A program made the position numbers and the translations under genes. Positions 1-24,884 of a stretch of DNA of 24,884 nt are shown piece by piece. Origin of the DNA: a virus. Location: positions 1 through 24,884 of the IMG/VR virus record IMGVR_UViG_3300030109_003907, one strand, 5' to 3'. The first letter of the stretch is position 1. Each line of letters opens with the position of its first letter. The notes under the pieces were generated by a model. That model was not told where the DNA came from, made no database searches, and saw only the letters and a list, made by a program, of their open reading frames with translations.

Positions 1-283
1 AGAACATAACATTAACACCAAACGGACCTCTATCAAAATCTATAAAGTTATAACTCATATCATTAACGATATTAGTCATCCAATTAACTCTACTAAAACT
101 AAACTTATCTTTATTATAAAGATTACGTGCTGGATTCATCATTGGTAACATTACATTACCAATTGAACTCGCTTGAGCAGTAGGTGCTATTGTTAATATT
201 CTATTTGCTTGTGCTAACAATTGACTACCTAACGATAGTAATATTGTCAAACCAAATAATATCCAAAATTTATTTTTTCTCAT
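1..283 (-). CDS. PorV/PorQ-family outer-membrane beta-barrel protein, N-terminal part (runs off the window)
   Basis: Only the first 94 residues are visible; the gene continues past base 1. Residues 1-24 form a signal peptide: a basic start (MRKNK), a long hydrophobic core and a likely cleavage after LLAQA. The following segment has the signature of the PorV/PorQ family, outer-membrane barrels that serve or resemble the T9SS shuttle: an ILTIAPTAQASSIGN stretch equivalent to the family's leading L-x-I-x-P-x-A-R-x-x-x-M-G motif, then MNPARNLYNK (family: N-P-A) and a strand pattern ending GPFGVNVMF. The start overlaps the end of the 38-aa gene by 14 bases, so the two are probably translated together. 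In bacteria PorV binds the C-terminal domain of T9SS cargo, which fits the cargo-like gene two positions upstream. Membership is read from motifs only; a generic outer-membrane barrel is the alternative. Confidence 0.68.
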   Translation of the reverse strand, partial: MRKNKFWILFGLTILLSLGSQLLAQANRILTIAPTAQASSIGNVMLPMMNPARNLYNKDKFSFSRVNWMTNIVNDMSYNFIDFDRGPFGVNVMF

Positions 284-386
284 TTTTACTCTCTATTTTA
301 TCAGAAAACCAAACAATAAATTTTAAGGTGAAATATAATGATGGAAGCATTACAGCTAAAGCGAAGAAAAATTGTAATTCATTCAT
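270..386 (-). CDS. 38-aa single-pass membrane peptide between T9SS cargo and PorV-like gene
   Basis: A short reading frame that fills the gap between its neighbours almost exactly. Its ATG shares a base with the stop of the upstream T9SS-cargo gene (TAATG), and its TAA lies 14 bases inside the following PorV-like gene. The peptide is MNELQFFF, then a hydrophobic stretch of about 20 residues containing two short breaks (a proline near residue 15 and a lysine at 22), then a highly charged tail (SDKIESKNEKK). It therefore looks like one membrane span with a charged, probably cytoplasmic, C-terminus. No family is recognised. Support comes from position, perfect fit and coupling; a chance open frame remains possible at this length. 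Confidence 0.5.
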   Translation of the reverse strand: MNELQFFFALAVMLPSLYFTLKFIVWFSDKIESKNEKK

Positions 387-3286
387 TATTTCACCACCGT
401 AAATTTATTGGCTTTAATTTTATTGTCTGTTTGCATTACAAAAATATAAACACCAGGTTCTAATGTTTTATGGTTTTCATAAACACTAACCTCAGGTAAC
501 CAAACAGTTGGTGTATTAGTAAATTCAAAAGTATGTAATCCAGCTAAAACATTCTCATTTAATAATGTTCCAACTTTTTGTCCTATTGAATTTAAGATAT
601 ATAATTTAACATCTTTTGATTCTTCTAAATAGAATTGGAATGTTGTATTATCTATAAATGGATTTGGATAATTATATGTTATCTCATCATTATCAGGTTT
701 ACCACCACCGAATGCCCAATACTTATTCCATACTAATACTTGACCATCTTTTCTTTTCATTAACAAATCTCTACCTGCAGGTGTTCCAGCTGAATATTTA
801 CCTGTAAATCTTATAGGTGCTGTTGTCCACTCACTATCAGGAAAGTTTGCTTCAAATAATAAATTTAATCCTGTAATTTCTTTATCTATCCAATATGTTT
901 CAGGTTTATTATTTGGTGAATAATCAACTCCACCAAAGGATACTTTTCTCCAACCATCTACAGCTTCATGAACATTCACATACGTCATCCAAGGACCTGG
1001 CAACACATCTGTTTTCATATCTACAAATTCCAATTCATCTTCTTTATATTCTAATTCAAATTCAAATCCTGCTAAAAGAACTCCGTCTCTTGGTGTAATC
1101 GTTAAAGGAACTTCTATCTGATTACCAGATTGAACTCTAACAGTAGAATCAGCAGGTAAAGAAAGAACCACAGCAACTCCATTATCAAAATCATCTGAAG
1201 TTATACCTTGTGATGAATTAAAACTTACTTCATCATTATCTGTATTGATTTTATTTGCGTGTCTTGTTGGTGCACTTCCACCTTTCCATCTATGGAACAT
1301 AATGTTAGATGCGATATCATCTTGATATCCATCTTTTCCATTACCAGGTTCAGTAACTTTAGTTCCTGTATTGTTTATATCACCTGTAAAATAATATCCT
1401 ATATCAGGCATTAGATAATCTGGATTACCAGCTTGGTCATTTTTTTCACTTGTTCTCGCTGCACTCCAAGAAGAATATCCACCACCTAATATTAAGTGAA
1501 GTGTATCTAATCCTGTTTGGTGGTCATCCATTAATGGATTTGTAGTTTCTATCTGACCAAACGATAATGCTTTTTGGTTTGTAGCTAAAGCTCTTGTTGT
1601 AGCCATTGGTGATTTTTTTCCAGCATTATTTCCAGAGGATCTATCTCCTCCAGTACCAGATTCTGCAGTTGTAGTCTCATCCCAATATACAGTAAACTCA
1701 TATTTTTGTGGTCTTGATTGTCCGTTTACTGTTTGATAGTATACGTAGTTATTAGCATTTCCACTCTCTTTAAATACCTCTATTGTAGCCCAATCCTCAT
1801 AAGAGTTTCCATTATGGTGTGTGTAGTTGTTAAAAATACCTGATACGTAAGACCATAATATATAAGTGTCATTCAATTGATATAAATCATCACCATCTAC
1901 ATCACCAATTAAATATTCAATAGCAGTTAACGTATCTATTCTACCACCACCTGCATTATAATTCTTATGTTTACCTGATTGGAAATTAAATGAAGCTATA
2001 GCATCATTTGCATTTGTAATAGCAGTTCTATCTAACTCAAGTTGTGTATGTGCTTCAATATTATCACTTGCATCAGGTGGCCAAAATGACATACGATATC
2101 TATTGTTTCTTGGTAACTGAATACTATAATATCCTTTATCATCGGTGTAAGTTGAGTCATAATAAGATATACCAAGAAATCCCTCTTTGGGTAATGCTTG
2201 TAAAGCAGTTGTTGATTTGTTATCATAATAAAATGTTGCTGTATGGTTTCCAATAACATCGTCAGTTGTAGTCTCATCTTTTTTCTTAGCTGCAGCATCT
2301 GCACCTGTATGGTCAGTTATTGTTTCTACATTTAACCAATTAGATATTCTTGGATTGAAGTTAGCTTCATTGTGGTCTAACTCAAATTTTACTTTCCAAT
2401 ATGGATATGTGTTTTCTGCTGGTGCACTCCAAGCAGCTCCAAGAGCTCTGTCTTTACCTTGAGCATATCTGAAGTATCCCTCAACGTCTAATAGTTTTGG
2501 GTGTAGTGTTATATCACCTCTAGCACCACCTATACCAACTTGTTCTGTACCAGTGTTGCCATCAATGTAAACTTTATAACTAGAGCCATAAAGTCCGTTT
2601 GTAACGTATGTGTAATACCCTGTGCTACCATCGTATTTTGTTGCAACCCTAAATGCTTTAGGAGCAAAGTTATCAGCTACATCATTGACTTTGAAATGTA
2701 GTTTTAATAATTCTGTTTGTGTACCGTTACCATTACCAAAAGTTTTGACATTACCATTGTGAGATACCATTGTTATTCTCAACCAATCATATCTTGTATC
2801 AGTAACGGATAATTCATCATCGGCGTCAGCTAATGAATCAGTATATCCTACGTTAGCATATCTTACAACTTCGTATGAATAGTGAGCACCTGCTGAACTA
2901 TCACCTTCTGTCCAACCTGAAATGTAAGCTCCTTTTTCAACGTGAGTTGAGTCGTGTCCCCACGTAAATAAATCATTGTCGAAAGCTAAATCTAAACGAA
3001 AGGCAGTAACACTAGCTCCGTTATCATCAAGAGTAACAGCTAAAGTCATTACTGAATCTCTCCAGGCATCAAAGTTATTGTTTTTATAAGCTACACCTAC
3101 AGCGGCATTAGTTGTGTTCATACCAGTTGTATCGTCAGCTAAATAGCCTCTCAACTTAAAAGTTTCAGAGTCTCTCCACCAAAATTTAGGTGTCTTATAT
3201 TCTCTACTTTGCATGAGTCTTATGATAGGTGTCTGAGCTTCGATAACGCTCACAACCATCAACAGACTTAATAAAAATTTACGCAA
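386..3286 (-). CDS. Exported T9SS cargo-like protein with cohesin-like and dockerin-like segments and C-terminal sorting domain
   Basis: About 966 residues. I place the start at a TTG (3284-3286), preceded by AGGAGA six bases away; this gives a clean signal peptide MRKFLLSLLMVVSVIEA before Q. A TTG further upstream would add eight residues before the signal peptide. Visible parts: a cohesin-like beta domain (about 70-220, with VTLDDNGASVTAFRLDLAF); a dockerin-like calcium loop (about 461-483, GDVDGDDLYQLNDTYILW); a second one (about 635-665, GDINNTG then DGYQDD); a cohesin-like domain (about 704-812, with LLAGFEFELEY); and a C-terminal domain (870-966) with YNYPNPF, GQKVGTLL, GVYIFVMQ and a final basic strand, as in type A T9SS sorting domains. 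It sits last in the virion operon but looks like a cell-surface rather than a tail protein. What it binds is unknown. Confidence 0.8.
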   Translation of the reverse strand: MRKFLLSLLMVVSVIEAQTPIIRLMQSREYKTPKFWWRDSETFKLRGYLADDTTGMNTTNAAVGVAYKNNNFDAWRDSVMTLAVTLDDNGASVTAFRLDLAFDNDLFTWGHDSTHVEKGAYISGWTEGDSSAGAHYSYEVVRYANVGYTDSLADADDELSVTDTRYDWLRITMVSHNGNVKTFGNGNGTQTELLKLHFKVNDVADNFAPKAFRVATKYDGSTGYYTYVTNGLYGSSYKVYIDGNTGTEQVGIGGARGDITLHPKLLDVEGYFRYAQGKDRALGAAWSAPAENTYPYWKVKFELDHNEANFNPRISNWLNVETITDHTGADAAAKKKDETTTDDVIGNHTATFYYDNKSTTALQALPKEGFLGISYYDSTYTDDKGYYSIQLPRNNRYRMSFWPPDASDNIEAHTQLELDRTAITNANDAIASFNFQSGKHKNYNAGGGRIDTLTAIEYLIGDVDGDDLYQLNDTYILWSYVSGIFNNYTHHNGNSYEDWATIEVFKESGNANNYVYYQTVNGQSRPQKYEFTVYWDETTTAESGTGGDRSSGNNAGKKSPMATTRALATNQKALSFGQIETTNPLMDDHQTGLDTLHLILGGGYSSWSAARTSEKNDQAGNPDYLMPDIGYYFTGDINNTGTKVTEPGNGKDGYQDDIASNIMFHRWKGGSAPTRHANKINTDNDEVSFNSSQGITSDDFDNGVAVVLSLPADSTVRVQSGNQIEVPLTITPRDGVLLAGFEFELEYKEDELEFVDMKTDVLPGPWMTYVNVHEAVDGWRKVSFGGVDYSPNNKPETYWIDKEITGLNLLFEANFPDSEWTTAPIRFTGKYSAGTPAGRDLLMKRKDGQVLVWNKYWAFGGGKPDNDEITYNYPNPFIDNTTFQFYLEESKDVKLYILNSIGQKVGTLLNENVLAGLHTFEFTNTPTVWLPEVSVYENHKTLEPGVYIFVMQTDNKIKANKFTVVK

Positions 3287-3350
3287 GGTAAATCTCCTGT
3301 TAGTTATCAATGAGTAACCTTTTTAGAATAAAAAAGTGTAGACTTTATTT

Positions 3351-6270: not shown

Positions 6271-9200
6271 TTAATCCTCATCTACCTGTAGGTCTGAAAT
6301 ACCAACGTCGGTTGGAACTGCTACCGTAGGTGCTGTTTTTCTTATGATGATTGGTAAATCACCATCTAAAGTTGAATTTGTTGTGTTTTTGACACCTTCA
6401 TAAAAACTATTATTAAAAGCTGTTATCTCGGTATATCGAGGGTCAATATCAGTGCTTGCTAATGATTTTGTGTGATAGAAATGTTCAGCTTTATCAAGAG
6501 TATATCTATTACTATTTATGTAATCACCTGAACTCGTGTATACAAAATTATATACTTGATTAAATTCAGATTTTACACCCTCAAGAATCATAGAACCTGT
6601 TGCTTCACTAAATACTTTATTAGGTCCTCCGTAAGAAGCTGTAGCAGTTATATAAATATTTGGGTCATCGTGGTTGAAATTAACTTTATTAAGTTCATAT
6701 AATGAAGGAGTTTTAAATATATCTGTATTATTTGCTATTCCTACATAATTAGGATATTGTGTTTCTATTCTGACGATTGAACGACTATCTTCATTTTCAT
6801 TATTTTTTTCAAAATTTCCTACATTTATCTCATCTTCATATGCGGGTTGTGTAAATGAAGGTCTGTTACGTTGTACAGGTGATTTAGGTCTTTCAAATAG
6901 ATTACCCTCGATTACCGTACCAAGTTGTGTTTTTGCTCTAGCAGGAATAACTTTTCTTAATTGTTTAAATATAGACTGGTCATAATATTTTATAAGATGC
7001 ATATAATCCCAAAAATTATTATTATCTGTATATTTTTTAAAGTAATCATCTGCTGTATATTTTAATGTTCTGTATTCATCTTCGTAATTATCACGAGGGT
7101 CACCAATCAACTGGTTAAAATCTAAATTAGCAAATGAATTTATAATATCATCATTTATTACATCAACAGGTGAAAAATAAATTCCCAATTTAGGAGAATC
7201 AAGAGGAGCAAAATCATTTGAACTTTGGTCATATCGTGCAAATCTACTCAACATAGCTCCACTACCACTCAAGTAATTGTTTTCGATTCTAATCTTTGTA
7301 GCAGTTCTTCTCACGGGACCAAAATTAGGAAGTATTGTTTTTGTTCTGTCATTAACAGATTCGAATAAATTTAATCCATCAAATCCGTGAGCACTACCTG
7401 TTTGAGTAGCATCTTGATTAGGTCTTGTATCACGAACTCCGTCTTCATTACTACCAGTAAATTCTATATTATCATCCATCGGAAATCTTCGTACTAAATT
7501 AAAGTATGAAGAAGAAGGAGTATTTCCAATATATGATTGGGGATTAGATACGTGTGTATTGAATTTATCTTCCTCTAATTTTTCAGTCCATAATCTGAAC
7601 TCCATAATCGAACCACTAAGTTTAATATTATTTGTGCCAAAACTTGTGGTCGTGTTACCACCTATAAATAAATCACCACTACCAGTCCAAGCAGCATTAT
7701 AAGAAGATGTAGTTGTATTTGAACCTGTAATGTATAATGAAGTTTTAGATGATTGAGTTATTCTATCTACACCTGCATCATACTTCTTTACAAATAAATC
7801 ATAAATAAAAGCAGCTGATATATCATCAGTATTTGTAACTGCTTTTCTTACTGAGACATCGTCCCATAAGATTGTAGATTTAGCTTTTCTGTTTTCAAAT
7901 CTTACACCTAATCCTGAAGTGTTAGAAAAATGTATTGTTTTTTGAACTTTGATTTGTTTCCAATCCGTTTCATTTAAACCAACTACTTCTGATTCATTTA
8001 TACCTCCTTTTTGTAAATTAGAATCAACGTTCCAATTCACAACTTCACCATCAGAATCTAACTCAAATAAAGCTAAACTTCCTACACTATCAACTGAACT
8101 ACCTGAAGCTTTTGCATAAACTGAAAACTCATAAGTCTGTCCTTCACTTACACTAGCTACAGAGGCATTGAGAGAAGGATAGTTTACATTATCATTACGA
8201 TACAGATTAGTGTAAGATATATTTGTTGTATCACCAGTGTGTTCGTGTCGTAAAGCATTTGTTCCCGTACGAGATACATTTGAACTACTTACAATTTTTA
8301 AATTACCAAACTCTACACTTGTTGTATCAGTTGCTCCTGTTATAAAAGGAGGATTAAATAATGACGAGGTTTCAAAACCTTGATTAGTAAATAGATTTGT
8401 ATTGACTTTATTTTTACGTAACATTACAGAATAAAATTCACCATCATAAACTGGTAATAAAGATGAACTTATTTCCTGATATCCAGGTGAACCAGATAAC
8501 TGAAATGCAACCGTTCCATAGTTATCATCTTGTCCGTTATCCTTAACCTTGATAGCCCAATCTGAATCTTTTTGAACAAGTATTTGTTCAGCTGAACCAC
8601 TCGACACTCTGAATCTAAATTCAACGGTGTCAGGTTTACGACTTGTAACTGAATCATCGTCCCAAGGTGTTCTTATAAACTGGTCTCCTCTAAAACCTAA
8701 AGCTTTTGTAAATCTTCTAGCTATTTCAAACTGCTGTCTTTGTCCTGTTTTTTGTAAACCTCCATACTCACGTACGCGTAAAATACTTGAAGGAATACCA
8801 TAACAATTAAGAATTGCTTTTAATGAGTTGATTGTACCTTTAGTTTTAAGTATGTAAGGCATGCTAGCTATCAAACGTTTAGTGATTTCTTTTGTTATTT
8901 CACCTTCAGGTACCGAAGCGGCTGTCCCATCTACAATCTTAGAAAATCCTGATGAACCTGATGTGTATAGTGAGTAACTATCACCACTAAGTTTTTGACC
9001 GAAACCTACTCTACTTAAATCTAATAAATCTTTACCATCATCAACAGACCAACCTAAAGATTTAGCTAAGTTATACACAAGGTCATTCGAGAAACCTTTA
9101 CTCAAATCATTTTGTCTGTCGGTTAATTCTGATATACCATTAGTGTAAACCCACAACTCATCAAAGTGTTGACCAACCATATCCATAAAACTAAAGAAGT

Positions 9201-17491: not shown

Positions 17492-17884
17492 TTATTGTCC
17501 TTTTACTGATTCTATTCGATTTTGAATTTTGTCTGATTCTATTTGAATGTCTTTTATAGTATCTTCCATTCCAGCTAATAGTTGAGTTTTTTCTTCTTCG
17601 GATAAACCAAACTCATTTTCAGACCCAGCTTTGTTTTCAGCTGAAATTAATCTTTGTACAATACCAGCCATCTTAACAAGTTGGTCATCGTTTTTAACGT
17701 TGATTTCAAGATATTCTTTTATCATAGGAACTAATTGTACAGCTGTATCACCATCTTTGATGAACTGAACAAGTTCTTTTGTAAGTATATCTAGTTGTTT
17801 TTTGTTATATTCTGTATTGTCGTAAATGTCTTTGAAAAGAGACGAAAGAGATTTTCCTTCAAAGATTTCGTAGTCAATAGCCAT
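17492..17884 (-). CDS. Small helical protein opening the late tail operon, unknown
   Basis: 130 residues, nearly all helix: MAIDYEIFEGKSLSSLFKDI, a middle segment ending ENKAGSENEFGLSEEE, and a last helix TIKDIQIESDKIQNRIESVK. Very acidic and probably a coiled-coil oligomer. It ends directly against the ATG of the gp5-like gene (TAA then ATG), so the two are translated in tandem, and it is the first gene of the minus-strand late block visible here. I do not recognise the family; a hub assembly partner or chaperone for the spike is a reasonable guess from position. Confidence 0.68.
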   Translation of the reverse strand: MAIDYEIFEGKSLSSLFKDIYDNTEYNKKQLDILTKELVQFIKDGDTAVQLVPMIKEYLEINVKNDDQLVKMAGIVQRLISAENKAGSENEFGLSEEEKTQLLAGMEDTIKDIQIESDKIQNRIESVKGQ

Positions 17885-18352: not shown

Positions 18353-18357
18353 GTTTG

Positions 18358-18430
18358 AGCCAGAGATAGGATTCGAACCTACGACCTAGTGATTACAAAT
18401 CACTTGCTCTACCAACTGAGCTACTCTGGC
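18358..18430 (-). tRNA. tRNA-Thr (anticodon TGT)
   Basis: A complete 73-base cloverleaf: acceptor GCCAGAG/CTCTGGC, D-stem GCTC/GAGC, anticodon stem AGTGA/TCACT with loop TTTGTAA (anticodon TGT at 18395-18397), T-arm with TTCGAAT, and discriminator T. CCA is not encoded. It reads ACA, which is frequent in an AT-rich phage with Thr-rich structural proteins. It is the last gene before the shared terminator and lies six bases after the selenocysteine-type tRNA, so both are probably processed from the transcript of the sigma-factor operon. Confidence 0.93.
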
Positions 18431-18436
18431 TTATAG

Positions 18437-18529
18437 CGGCGACGGATAGGAATCGAACCTACCTGTAGTATCAACTACTACACTACGGTGTTGAAGACCG
18501 AGGAGAGCACCAGCTACTCAATCGTCGCC
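18437..18529 (-). tRNA. selC: Selenocysteine-type tRNA (anticodon TCA), UGA-decoding
   Basis: 93 bases with anticodon TCA at 18492-18494 in loop CTTCAAC. Sec-type features: the 3' strand between T-loop and discriminator is 13 bases (CCTATCCGTCGCC) instead of the normal 12; the D-arm can form six pairs (GAG and AGC with GCT and CTC, one bulged T) closed by a four-base loop TGGT; a long variable arm GTAGTA/TACTAC; G73 discriminator; and G1-C72. The acceptor GGCGACG/CGTCGCC has seven pairs, and a six-pair T-stem gives a 13-pair coaxial stack. The anticodon stem is weak (four pairs). The alternative is a serine- or leucine-type opal suppressor, which would normally keep 12 bases and a short D-stem. 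CCA is not encoded. Confidence 0.72.
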
Positions 18530-20343: not shown

Positions 20344-21546
20344 TTAAAAGAAATTGTGTGTTGAATTTGTAGGTTGTTTTTTAGTATTACTCATTTTCAT
20401 ATAAAGTTGTTTATATGATTCGAATACTCTTGATGGGTCTTCACTCTTGACCATATCATCAATGGACCTCAATACTTTATATACTTCACTATCTACTGCT
20501 TGTTCCAATATATAATCGTGTCCATAAATTAGTTCAGTTACCATTCTGATAGCATCTTTAAATACATAAAAGTTATGTAATCTCATACCCATAGTACATT
20601 GTGTATTCCAATCAGCTACATCTTTCCAAGAAACAAGTCCTCTAAGTACATCATCAAAAGCAGTCATACGAGGCCAATCTTGATTAGGTGTTTCTCTAAA
20701 CCACTCTATAATGTCTGGATTGTGTTTTTCACTCGGAAAGTTGATTGATTCAAATGTACCTTTCTTTATACTAAATCGTGTGTAATATGTACCAAAAACG
20801 ACAGCTCTGTCAGGAGACGAACTATCAGTCGTTACAACAATATTGGAACCAATATCCTCAAGTGATTTCTGTAATTGAATCAACATCAAGAAGTCTCTGA
20901 TTTTAGAAGTACCAAGAATGTGAAAGTATTCATTACGAGGATTTAAGTGTTCTTTACCTTGAAGTAGAGCATGGACACCTGACATAAAACGATAAAGACT
21001 ACCACCAGCACCTCCGATACCCCAACCATTGAAATCAAAATCTTTGACTTGGTCATACCAGTGTTTGTAAGTGTGTTCGTCATCACCTTGTACTACGTTT
21101 AAGAACTTTGTAGAACCATCTTGTTTTGATTGAAAGTATTTGAAATTGTCAATACTAACATCTAAACATTCGTGAAACTTACCTTCGTTCTTTAAACGAG
21201 GAGGTAAATCTAAGTTCATCGCCACATCAGTATTTTCTGATAACCAGTTGAAGATTTTATCTCTATATTTTAAATCCCATTTGAGAGCTCCAGATGCGAA
21301 CTGAAATCCTCCTGAATCACCCATAACAAGATTTCTATCAGTAAGTCCCATTTTGTTTTTGTAATCTTTTACTGACATATGCGCTCCCGCTGTAATCAAT
21401 AATTGATTGTGTTGAAACTCTTCAGGATATTCTTCACTATAAAATCGTATCGTCATATCATTTCTGAAACGATGGTCTTTTACAAAGTTAGAACCCATCT
21501 CACCAGCTGAGAATGAAGGAAAATAAATAAAATTAGTTTTAATCAC
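20344..21546 (-). CDS. dpdA: DpdA-type (DNA) guanine transglycosylase, TGT superfamily
   Basis: 400 residues, starting at GTG (21544-21546), which overlaps the stop of the glycosyltransferase gene by eight bases. TGT-fold motifs: GDSGGFQ (76-82) with the substrate-binding Asp77; NLDLP (111-115); VVQGDD (151-156); GWGIGGAGGSL (174-184), matching the G-G-x-A-V-G loop of TGT; FHILG (208-212); and TTDSSSP (239-245), whose Asp241 sits where TGTs have the nucleophile. The C-terminal zinc site of tRNA TGTs is not intact: one Cys, then HNFY. This pattern fits phage DpdA enzymes, which swap guanine in DNA for a 7-deazaguanine, rather than tRNA-modifying Tgt. FolE, QueE and a QueD-like protein in the same operon would supply the base precursor. 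Confidence 0.78.
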   Translation of the reverse strand: MIKTNFIYFPSFSAGEMGSNFVKDHRFRNDMTIRFYSEEYPEEFQHNQLLITAGAHMSVKDYKNKMGLTDRNLVMGDSGGFQFASGALKWDLKYRDKIFNWLSENTDVAMNLDLPPRLKNEGKFHECLDVSIDNFKYFQSKQDGSTKFLNVVQGDDEHTYKHWYDQVKDFDFNGWGIGGAGGSLYRFMSGVHALLQGKEHLNPRNEYFHILGTSKIRDFLMLIQLQKSLEDIGSNIVVTTDSSSPDRAVVFGTYYTRFSIKKGTFESINFPSEKHNPDIIEWFRETPNQDWPRMTAFDDVLRGLVSWKDVADWNTQCTMGMRLHNFYVFKDAIRMVTELIYGHDYILEQAVDSEVYKVLRSIDDMVKSEDPSRVFESYKQLYMKMSNTKKQPTNSTHNFF

Positions 21547-22519
21547 GGAACCACCTTTCCATAGCTTCTTGATAATCTCTAACGTGTAATGGAGCTAATA
21601 AGTTACCTTTCAAAGCCATATTAACTTTATCACAAGCAGTATCGAAAGTATCATACAAATATTGTTCACTATAAAACTCAGGATAAACCAATCTGTTAGG
21701 AACAACAGGAACACAACCTAGATAAACAGCTTCAGCAATACTGAATCCAAAGTTTTCTTGTAGAGCAAAACTTACTACAACTTTAGCTCTACTCAACAAA
21801 TCATAATACTCATCTTTTGAAAAGTTATGTTCAAGAGTATTGATGAACTGAGTACTACCTATAACATCACCTAATCTATCTTCCATTTGTTTAAATAACC
21901 AAGGTTGTTTTTCATCTACATTTCTACCTGAGAATACTACTATATCTTCTTTAGGTTTCTTTTCAACTTTATCAAGATTTTCTGTATCTAAAGGAAATCC
22001 AGTTACAACTAACTTGTCAGGATTTATCAATCGTTTTTTAATAATATCATTTTTTATAAAATCACTACCACAATAAATTTCGTCAGCAATATCAAACAAA
22101 GTATCTTCAAAGTTTTTAGCCCATCGTTCCATATCTCTCACAAAATCAGTATCAGTAAAACTACCAGCGTGAATAAGTCCTCTTAACTTTACATCTTTCT
22201 TAGCAAAGTAATTCATATAAGCTATACTTTCGGGAAGTCCTGGATGCCATAAATCAGAACTCCAAATAACATCTCCACTATCAATCACATCTTCACGATA
22301 TAATCTAGCCACTTCTTCAATCTGAGCTGCTTTGAATCTAATTGTAAACTCAGCATCAAGAAAACTTCCTGCCTTCATACTTGTAGGAACAGGAATGTCA
22401 GGATAAACTTTGATACATTCTCTATCTAAGTTATCAAGATAATTTGATATATCTCTGTCCATATGAGTTGTGTATCTTGACTCAATATGTTCAAGAGGTA
22501 AGTAAATTATTTTACCCAT
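21539..22519 (-). CDS. GT-B glycosyltransferase (family 4-like)
   Basis: 326 residues from the ATG at 22517-22519, which has GGAG nine bases upstream and overlaps the previous stop in ATGGGTAA; an in-frame ATG ten codons earlier is less well placed. A Rossmann-like C-terminal domain carries VVFSGRNVDEKQPWLF (donor-binding start) and ENFGFSIAEAVYLGCVPVVP (about 255-274), the E-x7-E motif of retaining family 4 glycosyltransferases. The N-terminal domain has IWSSDLWHPGLPESIAYMNY and GLIHAGSFTD. No membrane span. It lies between the QueD-like gene and dpdA with overlaps on both sides, so its target may be phage DNA; glycosylation of a protein or surface glycan is the alternative. Confidence 0.8.
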   Translation of the reverse strand: MGKIIYLPLEHIESRYTTHMDRDISNYLDNLDRECIKVYPDIPVPTSMKAGSFLDAEFTIRFKAAQIEEVARLYREDVIDSGDVIWSSDLWHPGLPESIAYMNYFAKKDVKLRGLIHAGSFTDTDFVRDMERWAKNFEDTLFDIADEIYCGSDFIKNDIIKKRLINPDKLVVTGFPLDTENLDKVEKKPKEDIVVFSGRNVDEKQPWLFKQMEDRLGDVIGSTQFINTLEHNFSKDEYYDLLSRAKVVVSFALQENFGFSIAEAVYLGCVPVVPNRLVYPEFYSEQYLYDTFDTACDKVNMALKGNLLAPLHVRDYQEAMERWFRD

Positions 22520-22859
22520 AGATTTCAGCTCCATTCTCGTTATCTTCAAATACTGAACAATACACTAAATCAAATTCTTCTAACAATTCTTTAGCCAACA
22601 TCTCACAAGACTTTGCCTTGAAGTTACAACAATCATATTGTTCATCATAGTATTTATCTTCTAAATACTTTTTGACCTTTCTTTTAAACACGATAAACTC
22701 TACATCTCTGTCATCGTGAAAAACTTCTTTTTTAACTTCGATATGAAACATATGCCTATGAACTGATTCAAGGTATACCATTGTGGGTTCATATTTACTT
22801 GCTTCTGACCACCAGTGTAGTCCTTCAACTTGTAGTCTACATATTATATTAGTTTTCAT
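22512..22859 (-). CDS. QueD-like (6-pyruvoyl-tetrahydropterin synthase-fold) protein
   Basis: 115 residues. The layout fits the QueD/PTPS fold: a first strand ending in GLHWW (His15), then HRHMFHIEV (His34, His36), giving the H...HxH zinc set; ENGAEIY at the end matches the closing strand. QueD converts dihydroneopterin triphosphate to 6-carboxytetrahydropterin, the step between FolE and QueE. However, the catalytic Cys expected between His15 and His34 is missing and a D-H pair is replaced by HDDRDVEFI, so it may be a diverged relative with a different activity. The HRH...HDDRDVEFI signature is one I associate with many phage proteins of unassigned role. Overlaps both neighbours. Confidence 0.5.
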   Translation of the reverse strand: MKTNIICRLQVEGLHWWSEASKYEPTMVYLESVHRHMFHIEVKKEVFHDDRDVEFIVFKRKVKKYLEDKYYDEQYDCCNFKAKSCEMLAKELLEEFDLVYCSVFEDNENGAEIYG

Positions 22860-23262
22860 TTAAATAGTCCTGTATTTCTTCTGAATCTTTAGTTTCCCAA
22901 GGATAAACAATCCATTTATCTCGTTTATCAATTAATGCTAAATCTGGTTTAACAATACTTTGTTCGTGTTCGTGAATTGTTACATAAAAACTTTTCTCTG
23001 ATTTAGGGTGATTTTTATATTTTTTTAATGTATTACCCGTGTCAGCTATATCATCAATTATTACAACGTTTTCATTTACGTCATCAAATCTATCAATATA
23101 TGGAATATCCATTTTATGACTTAATAATATAGCTAACAACGCTCCGCCTCTAGGTATACCATAAACACCTTCAAAAACTTTACCTCTATCTTCATCTTTT
23201 AGATAAAACGCTATATCTGTGATACACTCATCAATTAACTCCCAACTTATAAATTCTTTCAT
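22849..23262 (-). CDS. Phosphoribosyltransferase (type I)
   Basis: 137 residues with the PRPP-binding loop VVIIDDIADTGNTL (66-79) and the upstream GIPRGGALLA (35-44). Near the C-terminus DKWIVYPWE resembles the W-x-x-x-P-W-(D/E) of xanthine/guanine phosphoribosyltransferases (Gpt group), which add ribose phosphate to a purine base. It starts inside the end of folE (ATGA) with AAGGGA six bases before and overlaps the QueD-like gene by 11 bases. In this operon it could salvage guanine, or a deazapurine, into a nucleotide; the substrate is not determinable here. Short for a Gpt (usually about 150). Confidence 0.78.
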   Translation of the reverse strand: MKEFISWELIDECITDIAFYLKDEDRGKVFEGVYGIPRGGALLAILLSHKMDIPYIDRFDDVNENVVIIDDIADTGNTLKKYKNHPKSEKSFYVTIHEHEQSIVKPDLALIDKRDKWIVYPWETKDSEEIQDYLNEN

Positions 23263-23885
23263 TTTAAATCCCTTATAAAGTTATAAAATTCTTCTCGTGA
23301 ATGACTATCATAATTCATAAACTCACCACTCAACTTAGATGTTTTCATAGTAGAATTATGTTTGATACCACGTACACAAGCACACATATGGTCAGCCTCG
23401 ACAGATACAGCAACACCAATGTTTTCTTCACACACATCGTGAATGTGGTCGTGTACCTGCATTGTTAAGTTCTCTTGTACTTGAGGTCGTCTAGCATAAA
23501 AATCAACAATACGATTGAGTTTACTAAGTCCAATCACTTTACCCTCAGGTGTAGGTAGATAAGCCACGTGAGCATGTCCTACGAAAGGTAAATGATGATG
23601 TGAACAAAATGAATGTAATTTAATATTACCTTGAAACACAATACCATCATAACCATCTACATTATCAAATGCTGTTATCTTAGGTGATTCATTATAAACA
23701 CCTGAAGCTAAATCATTGACAAAAGCTTTAGCCACTCTGATAGGAGTTTCAGAAGAGTTAGGGTCTTCACTCCAATCGAATCCAAGAGCTGTCATATAAT
23801 TACCATAATGTTCAGCAGCTTGTTCAATCATCTTTAGTTTTTCTTGTTCTGTCAACGGATTGTTTCCGTTAGCATGTTTCAACAT
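23259..23885 (-). CDS. folE: GTP cyclohydrolase I
   Basis: 208 residues, close to the usual bacterial length. The zinc ligands are all present: C94 and H97 in FCSHHHLPF, and C168 in DHMCACVRGI. Other family blocks are VAYLP, GKVIGLSKLNRIVDFYARRP and QVQENLT. The enzyme turns GTP into dihydroneopterin triphosphate, the entry to both folate/biopterin and 7-deazaguanine (queuosine, preQ0) synthesis. With queE and dpdA in the operon the deazaguanine route is the likely purpose. Starts at ATG with AAGGA nine bases upstream, inside the end of the previous gene (17-base overlap). The stop is TGA, one of only two in the window, overlapping the next ATG. Confidence 0.95.
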   Translation of the reverse strand: MLKHANGNNPLTEQEKLKMIEQAAEHYGNYMTALGFDWSEDPNSSETPIRVAKAFVNDLASGVYNESPKITAFDNVDGYDGIVFQGNIKLHSFCSHHHLPFVGHAHVAYLPTPEGKVIGLSKLNRIVDFYARRPQVQENLTMQVHDHIHDVCEENIGVAVSVEADHMCACVRGIKHNSTMKTSKLSGEFMNYDSHSREEFYNFIRDLK

Positions 23886-24453
23886 AATGTACTTTCCTTA
23901 TTAAATGTTTAAATCTTTTATCATCTAGTTTAACTGGTATAAGATGAGCATAATCAGATTGTTTAGTTCCAATATATGCTATTTTTTGAATCCAATTATT
24001 GTGTTCAGGTCTATCCCATTCTCTATAAATAAAAGAACGCATTTCGTATAAATCATAATATACATAGCTTCCTGTAGCAATCCATTTATTATTTTCTTGT
24101 ATTATTTCCATATGATATATTCTATTAGATTGTGAATCTTGTATCCAACCTAACTCTTCTTCTCTACCATGTTCAGAAAATTTAGCAGGATGCCATTTTG
24201 TATATTCTAAATCAAATTGATAACAATTATTATATTTATTATACCAAAAATTAGATTTAACGTCTGTGGTTATTTCACTTGACCAACTTTTATTTTTAAA
24301 ACCGTAATCTATACCTTTTCCCTGAACATCTTTCCACATTTCATAGTTAGTGTAGTCATACACTTCGTCCCATTGTGATTGAGCCATTTCACGAAAAGCT
24401 AATTCACCAGCTTTACCTTTTGTTAACTGCTTTACAAATAAAGCTTTACTCAT
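23869..24453 (-). CDS. PD-(D/E)XK nuclease-like protein
   Basis: 194 residues. The N-terminal part has the order of the PD-(D/E)XK nuclease core: a helix with Glu (KGKAGELAFREM, E17), then GKGIDYGF (D49), then ITTDVKSNFW (D64-x-K66) and a following strand FDLEY. The rest is rich in Trp and Tyr (YVYYDLYEMRSFIYREW) and does not match a family I know. If active it could cut host DNA, repair phage DNA, or be a homing-type enzyme; its place inside a DNA-modification operon would fit a nuclease that ignores modified phage DNA. The motif match is short and the nuclease call is provisional. It overlaps the upstream gene in ATGAGTAA. Confidence 0.5.
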   Translation of the reverse strand: MSKALFVKQLTKGKAGELAFREMAQSQWDEVYDYTNYEMWKDVQGKGIDYGFKNKSWSSEITTDVKSNFWYNKYNNCYQFDLEYTKWHPAKFSEHGREEELGWIQDSQSNRIYHMEIIQENNKWIATGSYVYYDLYEMRSFIYREWDRPEHNNWIQKIAYIGTKQSDYAHLIPVKLDDKRFKHLIRKVHYVETC

Positions 24454-24679
24454 CTAAACTCCATTGTCTGTAACCAAAAACATTCATACCAATTACAAAT
24501 GCACTTATTGCTATTTGAGGAGGTGCATCAATCAGATAAGCATATATCAAGAATGCAACATTACCTAATCCCCAAATAATAAAACAAGTCTTTATTTTTT
24601 TAGCATTGAAGTAGTAACCGGCTACTATAGCAGCAGTTCCTATCCAACCTATCCAATCATACCCCACGTTCATCTCCAT
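24446..24679 (-). CDS. Small three-span membrane protein
   Basis: 77 residues with three hydrophobic segments (about 8-23, 31-50 and 54-70) separated by a basic loop NAKKIK and a short APPQ turn, ending in a polar tail YRQWSLDE. The layout resembles small phage and bacterial membrane proteins of the CBU_0592/PnuC-fragment type, but the match is loose. The first in-frame ATG is used here; a GTG at 24665-24667 with GGAG six bases ahead is an equally good start and would shorten it by four residues. The gene begins inside the 3' end of queE. Function unknown; it might move a nucleobase or precursor, which is speculation. Confidence 0.68.
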   Translation of the reverse strand: MEMNVGYDWIGWIGTAAIVAGYYFNAKKIKTCFIIWGLGNVAFLIYAYLIDAPPQIAISAFVIGMNVFGYRQWSLDE

Positions 24680-24884
24680 ATACTATTATATGTAATCTAT
24701 CTGTAAAATTGTAACCCTCACGAGTACATAGTTCTGTCAACCATCTTCGTCTTTCATTTAGTTGACTACGTTCGAGACCTTCAGGCATTAAATATACCTT
24801 ATCATTTGGTACACCTAATATTCTTTGTAACTCTTTTACTTCTTCTAAATCTTCTTCACTTGAGATAACAGGTTTGAGTTGATA
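24657..24884 (-). CDS. queE: 7-carboxy-7-deazaguanine synthase, C-terminal part (enters from beyond the right edge)
   Basis: Only the last 75 residues lie in the window. The segment reads QLKPVISSEEDLEEV, then GVPNDKVYLMPEG, QLNERRRWL, GYNFTDRLHIIVYGD and ends in RGV before TGA. The combination KVYLMPEG plus RLHI-x-x-(W/Y)G-x-x-RG-V is the C-terminal signature of QueE, the radical-SAM enzyme that makes 7-carboxy-7-deazaguanine from 6-carboxytetrahydropterin. The radical-SAM CxxxCxxC motif would be upstream, outside the window. It starts the visible part of the operon that holds folE, the QueD-like gene and dpdA; queC, needed to reach preQ0, is not seen and may lie further right. Confidence 0.82.
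   Translation of the reverse strand, partial: YQLKPVISSEEDLEEVKELQRILGVPNDKVYLMPEGLERSQLNERRRWLTELCTREGYNFTDRLHIIVYGDERGV

Follow-up and report, generated by a model that had tools for sequence, protein, structure and literature searches.

Why would a bacteriophage carry a tRNA for selenocysteine (Sec)? The usual explanation for phage tRNAs is codon usage, but it fails for tRNA-Sec, which serves a single codon and belongs to a dedicated host pathway. The question is raised by a gene in the stretch of DNA analysed here (the window), which is the entire 24,884-base record of a virus in IMG/VR. The features around this gene are collected in Table 1.

Table 1. Position and supporting evidence of the features at the tRNA-Sec locus of the window.
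Feature	Position	Strand	Evidence and remarks
tRNA-Sec (selC-like)	18437..18529	minus	ARAGORN; RF01852, 65.4 bits; fold z -4.2; pair counts
Anticodon UCA of tRNA-Sec	18492..18494	minus	sequence; ARAGORN
tRNA-Thr (UGU), ordinary	18357..18430	minus	ARAGORN; RF00005, 75.6 bits; comes after tRNA-Sec in the same orientation
Upstream gene, 243 aa	18535..19266	minus	ORF; synteny; no Pfam or PHROG family match
Conserved small membrane-like protein, 73 aa	18058..18279	plus	ORF; synteny; flanks the tRNA pair in relatives

Identity and structure of the tRNA-Sec gene

A sequence-only reading of the window had proposed a tRNA-Sec at this locus, and gene calling, covariance modelling and folding all bear out that location, on the minus strand. 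ARAGORN called a tRNA-SeC(tca) at 18436-18529. In the covariance-model check that the reading had called for, the Rfam model RF01852 matched positions 18438-18529 (E = 1.8e-11, with a score well over the gathering cut-off of 47 bits) and was the top scorer, no other tRNA model reaching higher. Because the adjacent tRNA-Thr reaches only 28.8 bits with RF01852, the model is a discriminating one. The first base past the model end, at 18437, is the discriminator G73, and CCA is not encoded. Furthermore, the lowest-energy fold of the tRNA is the tRNA-Sec cloverleaf (-37.3 kcal/mol), a result matched by none of 200 shuffles.

The folded molecule has a 7-bp acceptor stem, one unpaired position and a 5-bp T-stem, a D-arm with a 6-bp stem and a UGGU loop, and an extra-long variable arm with a 7-bp helix. 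Thus, the six-pair D-arm with a four-base loop described from the sequence is there, although that description had overlooked a single bulged U after the third pair of the stem. Similarly, the 13-base 3' strand is present as described, but the eighth acceptor pair (A8 x C) is a mismatch and remains unpaired, so that the helix consists of 12 standard pairs and a mismatch rather than 13 pairs; instead, the T-stem of the window molecule can be extended at its base by a G-C pair. The gene therefore departs from the canonical 8/5 form and matches the published 7/5 form with an unpaired base. The accessible portions of two papers describe 7/5 tRNA-Sec with bulges (PMC5330540) and the 7/5 form in Epsilonproteobacteria (PMC4607533), and to that extent both the unpaired eighth acceptor position and the bulges have precedents. 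In its UCA anticodon, G73, long variable arm, six-pair D-stem and four-base loop, the window gene is like the tRNA-Sec of bacteria (selC, RF01852).

Covariation was assessed on an alignment (A3) of nine distinct phage tRNA-Sec and nine from Marinimicrobia, the latter hand-chosen from 76. Under the Sec-type structure 97.6% of cells pair and 17 of the 30 pairs show double changes; none of 500 shuffles was as good, and slid versions of the structure paired at most 55.9% of cells. Compensatory double changes were seen in the acceptor, D, variable and T stems, including six of the seven pairs of the long variable arm, which the sequence-only reading had also pointed out. The UCA anticodon and G73 that it named are invariant across A3, and the eighth acceptor pair is standard in none of the 18 sequences. 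A class II-type D-arm was considered and rejected, as 70.8% of its cells are paired and only two show double changes, compared with 99.1% of cells and double changes in four of six pairs for the Sec-type D-arm. The preference of the earlier reading for tRNA-Sec over an ordinary class II tRNA is upheld by the covariance model, by this Sec-type D-arm covariation and by clustering with Marinimicrobia tRNA-Sec (see below). The stems of the nine distinct phage sequences are preserved through compensatory changes, and the locus is a genuine tRNA-Sec of host type, under selection, on a marine phage.

Neighbourhood, relatives and likely host

The stop codon of the upstream gene lies 5 bases ahead of the tRNA-Sec, and the two tRNA genes are therefore probably co-transcribed with it. 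We take the product of this gene to resemble a late sigma factor of the T4 gp55 type. A scan of viral contigs with a degenerate tRNA-Sec pattern returned 99 stretches. Besides the window, 19 of these contigs are syntenic relatives in which tRNA-Sec lies beside a homologue of the 73-aa protein, and all 19 exceed the RF01852 cut-off (63.8-73.7 bits). A homologue of the gene at 17492-17884 adjoins in 18 of the 19, the stretch of the other (L062) ending before that gene is reached, and the upstream gene has a homologue wherever a contig extends that far. Many of the other stretches look like host selC beside prophages. A distant homologue of the 73-aa protein is also present in a 113-kb phage record (G002). 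In the wider family the tRNA-Sec is patchy: protein-based scans found 40 loci with both flanking genes, and only one of them (L102, on the same record as L003) has it. The gene is thus dispensable in most of the wider phage family.

This patchiness might indicate that the tRNA is a passenger with no function, either host DNA that the phage captured or what was once an integration site. Integration at selC is known, and several further contigs from the pattern scan have tRNA-Sec near the contig end. However, the compensatory changes described above extend to the nine distinct phage sequences, the gene is held in strict synteny within the tRNA cluster of a tailed phage, and no integrase was found among the scanned window proteins; a passenger is, in our view, very improbable.

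No close relative of the window tRNA-Sec was found among named phages, but phage tRNA-Sec calls are already in print. In the parts of the reports that are accessible, tRNA-SeC calls are given for Basilisk-like Bacillus phages, which the authors present as the first bacteriophage example to their knowledge (PMC6145125), and for Salmonella phage SSBI34 (PMC8879037). These cases resemble ours in that a tRNA-Sec is annotated on a phage genome. As far as those parts of the reports go, they are software annotations with no target gene, whereas the present set adds covariation, family-wide synteny, a link to a host and UGA-containing genes in other phages.

Two further viral sequences with tRNA-Sec are recorded here. 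In L008, an 11-kb viral contig, a tRNA-Sec of 64.3 bits (8313-8411, plus strand) lies inside a 16-tRNA array, and a very large viral contig (L060 and L182; record G003, 532,729 bases) carries a tRNA-Sec of 76.5 bits together with a 393-aa EF-Tu-like protein. Elsewhere in the window, a minus-strand gene at 386-3310 encodes a 974-aa secreted-looking protein and is adjoined by another at 2-283 (minus). In Pfam this region gave a sub-threshold Cohesin match only; the tail of the 974-aa protein presumably resembles a type IX secretion sorting domain, and we assume its neighbour to be PorV-like. A phage with a secretion cargo and an outer-membrane partner would be unusual. A gene run at 20344-24884 (minus) encodes a weak TGT-like protein, GTP cyclohydrolase I (163 bits), a phosphoribosyltransferase and a weak PnuC-like match, and suggests 7-deazaguanine DNA modification.

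The window phage is also represented by a 51,256-base record (G001, the record of L062), in which the shared proteins are 100% identical to those of the window. The ferredoxin of G001 has its best genome matches mostly in Marinimicrobia, at 65-76% identity. In this phylum SelB exceeded the cut-off in 136 of 199 genomes and tRNA-Sec was found in 114 of the 199; the bulged D-arm occurs in 36 of the 76 tRNA-Sec that were examined from it. The nine distinct phage tRNA-Sec group in a tree as one clade (support 1.0), and its parent clade (support 0.775) contains in addition 35 Marinimicrobia sequences with a bulged D-arm and a single other one from that phylum. A tree of 93 bases is weak evidence of kinship with Marinimicrobia, but it agrees with the structural oddities, since the bulged D-stem and the unformed eighth acceptor pair are common to the phage tRNA-Sec and one Marinimicrobia clade. 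From this indirect evidence we conclude that the host phylum of the window phage is likely to be Marinimicrobia (SAR406).

Unlike bacterial tRNA-Sec, the window gene lies on a tailed phage, and the SelB family was not found on 17 of the 18 tRNA-Sec records, including the 51-kb record of the window phage; the match on the 18th is an EF-Tu-like protein and was rejected as SelB. With SelB missing from these records, the phage would rely on host factors.

Retention of the bulged architecture of the host clade would also suit a spare tRNA, a substitute for host tRNA-Sec that an anti-phage nuclease has cleaved; such a role has been proposed for phage tRNAs of other kinds. Anticodon nucleases can be countered by phage tRNAs, but we know of no nuclease that targets tRNA-Sec, and Sec is unnecessary for general translation. 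A spare tRNA is therefore a long shot.

UGA codons in the window phage and in other marine phages

Because UCA as an anticodon would pair with UGA, and some phages are known to recode stop codons, a different explanation arises, namely a suppressor that inserts serine, tryptophan or another residue and so expresses late genes with in-frame UGA. However, TGA ends one of 23 ORFs in the window and 10 of 57 in G001 (and 14 of 139 in the 113,475-base record G002). TGA is an ordinary stop here, and the window tRNA is thus not a recoding suppressor. The systematic in-frame UGA that the sequence-only reading had itself named as counting against tRNA-Sec was not seen, and its remark that no window gene has an internal UGA holds for the window ORFs and for the readthrough lists. 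Furthermore, the readthrough lists, conserved-readthrough clusters and Cys-to-TGA scans yielded no conserved gene interrupted by TGA in the window or the 51-kb record, the Sec-specific D-arm covaries and the phage sequences cluster with host tRNA-Sec. We therefore reject a suppressor or a change of code as highly improbable.

Where, then, might the tRNA-Sec of this phage be used? The same lists, clusters and scans, together with three walks along relatives, gave nothing convincing, and a selenoprotein gene was not found in G001 or in the scanned relatives. Readthrough candidates that proved to be antisense frames, or frames over tRNA genes, were dropped, and inspection by eye attributed a conserved post-TGA frame in L553, L555-L557 and L559 to the ribosome site and beginning of the following gene. 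Related records in the same broad group are up to 109-113 kb long, which means that about half of the window phage genome may be unseen.

A different marine phage, G002, carries on one contig a tRNA-Sec (69.4 bits) and a UGA-containing thioredoxin. As just six proteins match between G001 and G002, the two represent separate lineages, and the tRNA-Sec of G002 is closest to a different Marinimicrobia clade than that of the window. A tmRNA (RF00023, 64-122 bits) was observed in both lineages (L062, 8333-8764, minus; L040, 315-725, plus; L036, 13632-14043, minus; L190, 16044-16389, plus). The thioredoxin of G002 is a 114-codon frame whose first active-site position is occupied by an in-frame TGA (W-U-G-P-C). 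The Sec-thioredoxin matches PF00085 in Pfam (E = 5.7e-22), is broken into fragments by standard gene calling, and adjoins gp32-like and RecA-like genes in what Pfam and synteny identify as a phage replication module.

A DNA pattern for the WUGPC site gave 45 stretches, of which 30 encode this same syntenic thioredoxin (24 distinct sequences once six duplicates were dropped) and one, L232, encodes a different thioredoxin. WUGPC is conserved in the 24 distinct sequences; the Cys homologues are L248 and L249. When loci were surveyed instead by the neighbouring gene, blind to TGA, 20 of 55 had TGA at the site and one had TGT, thioredoxin being absent from the other 34. Marinimicrobia matches to the thioredoxin profile are without TGA except for one, among the matches listed, and the matches in named phages all fall below 60% identity. 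G002 is the only record that holds both genes: tRNA-Sec over the cut-off was found in none of the 17 other Sec-thioredoxin records scanned, all of them fragments of about 6-49 kb. The hosts of the Sec-thioredoxin phages are perhaps related to that of the window phage.

All 24 distinct thioredoxin sequences have a hairpin after the UGA, with its loop about 24-29 bases from the TGA. In 20 it is of GAGC type with a four-base loop, and in the other four the register is shifted by one base. By sequence, the phage thioredoxins thus carry a SECIS-like hairpin of the bacterial kind, right after the UGA and with a G in a small apical loop. We compared each of the 24 sequences with 500 synonymous recodings drawn from the codon usage of G002. 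The mean z was -5.5, with values of -4.0 to -9.2 in the 20 sequences of the first register and of -1.7 to -2.2 in the four shifted ones; rare codons thus go into the hairpin, and it is maintained beyond what the protein requires. Plain pair counts are weak as covariation, with one pair showing double changes, and it is the recoding test that carries the point. Of the Cys homologues, L248 is without the hairpin. L249 (6001-6318, plus) encodes a thioredoxin of the Sec family that has Cys at the site (WCAPC) but retains the SECIS-like hairpin, as if Sec had lately been replaced by Cys. The thioredoxin-like frame of L232 (4780-4801, plus) has WUGPC, a hydrophobic N-terminus and a hairpin with z = -2.2; no tRNA-Sec was found on its 115.9-kb record.

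Thioredoxins with Sec (PF00085, UxxC) belong to the selenoprotein families already known from prokaryotes, and as far as the accessible text of PMC1088965 and PMC13188914 goes, UxxC and a post-UGA hairpin are common to the known proteins and ours. The word 'phage' is absent from the accessible text of these two papers and of PMC2398784, whereas the phage thioredoxin genes described here sit in replication modules. A 2026 review of prokaryotic selenoproteins has none of the words 'phage', 'virus' or 'viral' in its text. No phage selenoprotein was found in the published literature searched, a coverage that excludes most subscription journals and preprints. Phage-encoded selenoprotein genes are strongly supported, at the level of sequence, for the thioredoxin of this other lineage.

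A second candidate came from the Cys-to-TGA scan, which gave at least 702 raw sites. After filtering (including a limit of at most 2 stops), 55 thioredoxin sites (duplicate records included), one protease site and four rows were left; the four rows were judged antisense. The protease site is in L240 (TGA at 1719-1721, minus), on a contig that also carries a Sec-thioredoxin, where a trypsin-like protease has an in-frame TGA (SWGYG-U) at the position of a conserved Cys in G002. A hairpin is present but is not better than synonymous recoding (z = -0.31), and the protease therefore stays a single-sequence candidate. It would fit a selenoprotein described in the accessible part of the GOS paper (PMC2398784), a trypsin-like serine protease from marine metagenomes in which Sec takes the place of a conserved Cys.

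A proposed role in infection

We favour, at a probability of roughly 0.8, a working tRNA-Sec of Marinimicrobia type that was captured by a phage ancestor, has been selected, and supplies Sec-tRNA, most likely for phage selenoproteins. According to this proposal, an ancestor of the phage group would have acquired the gene and selection would have retained it. After infection, host SerRS would charge the phage tRNA with serine, host SelA and SelD would convert the Ser-tRNA to Sec-tRNA, and host SelB would bring this to those UGA codons that have a SECIS hairpin after them. The phage would in this way add decoding capacity, contributing the tRNA alone and borrowing the proteins. The likeliest use would be the translation of phage selenoproteins during infection, because other marine phages encode Sec-thioredoxin, one of them on a 113-kb contig that also has tRNA-Sec. 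The target of the window phage may be a gene in the unavailable part of its genome, or a host selenoprotein, the two places to which the sequence-only reading had also pointed.

The last possibility could be the whole story: a phage with no selenoprotein of its own might carry tRNA-Sec only to sustain the Sec enzymes of its host while host DNA is degraded. The wide use of Sec in the likely host phylum is consistent with this, as is the lack of a phage selenoprotein in the 51 kb seen. However, about half of the genome may lie beyond those 51 kb, and UGA-containing genes with SECIS-like hairpins are present in other marine phages; we consider service to the host alone unlikely. Selection for Sec-tRNA supply, chiefly to phage selenoproteins, remains the reading we prefer, and both the tRNA-Sec phages and the Sec-thioredoxin phages appear to make selenium-containing proteins.

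More tentatively, and at somewhat less than even odds, several marine phage lineages on Marinimicrobia may run a selenoprotein programme of their own, to which they would contribute tRNA-Sec and at least one selenoprotein gene (thioredoxin, perhaps also the trypsin-like protease), while the host would lend SelA, SelB and SelD. Part of the marine 'bacterial' selenoproteome would then be phage-encoded, and the window phage would be included, with its selenoprotein in the unseen half of the genome.

If the proposed role is correct, the 21st amino acid is among the resources that phages use, infection can be limited by selenium-dependent decoding, and UGA has to be kept in view when phage genomes are read. 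Finally, phages with tRNA-Sec allow a direct test of what certain phages gain from rare tRNAs.
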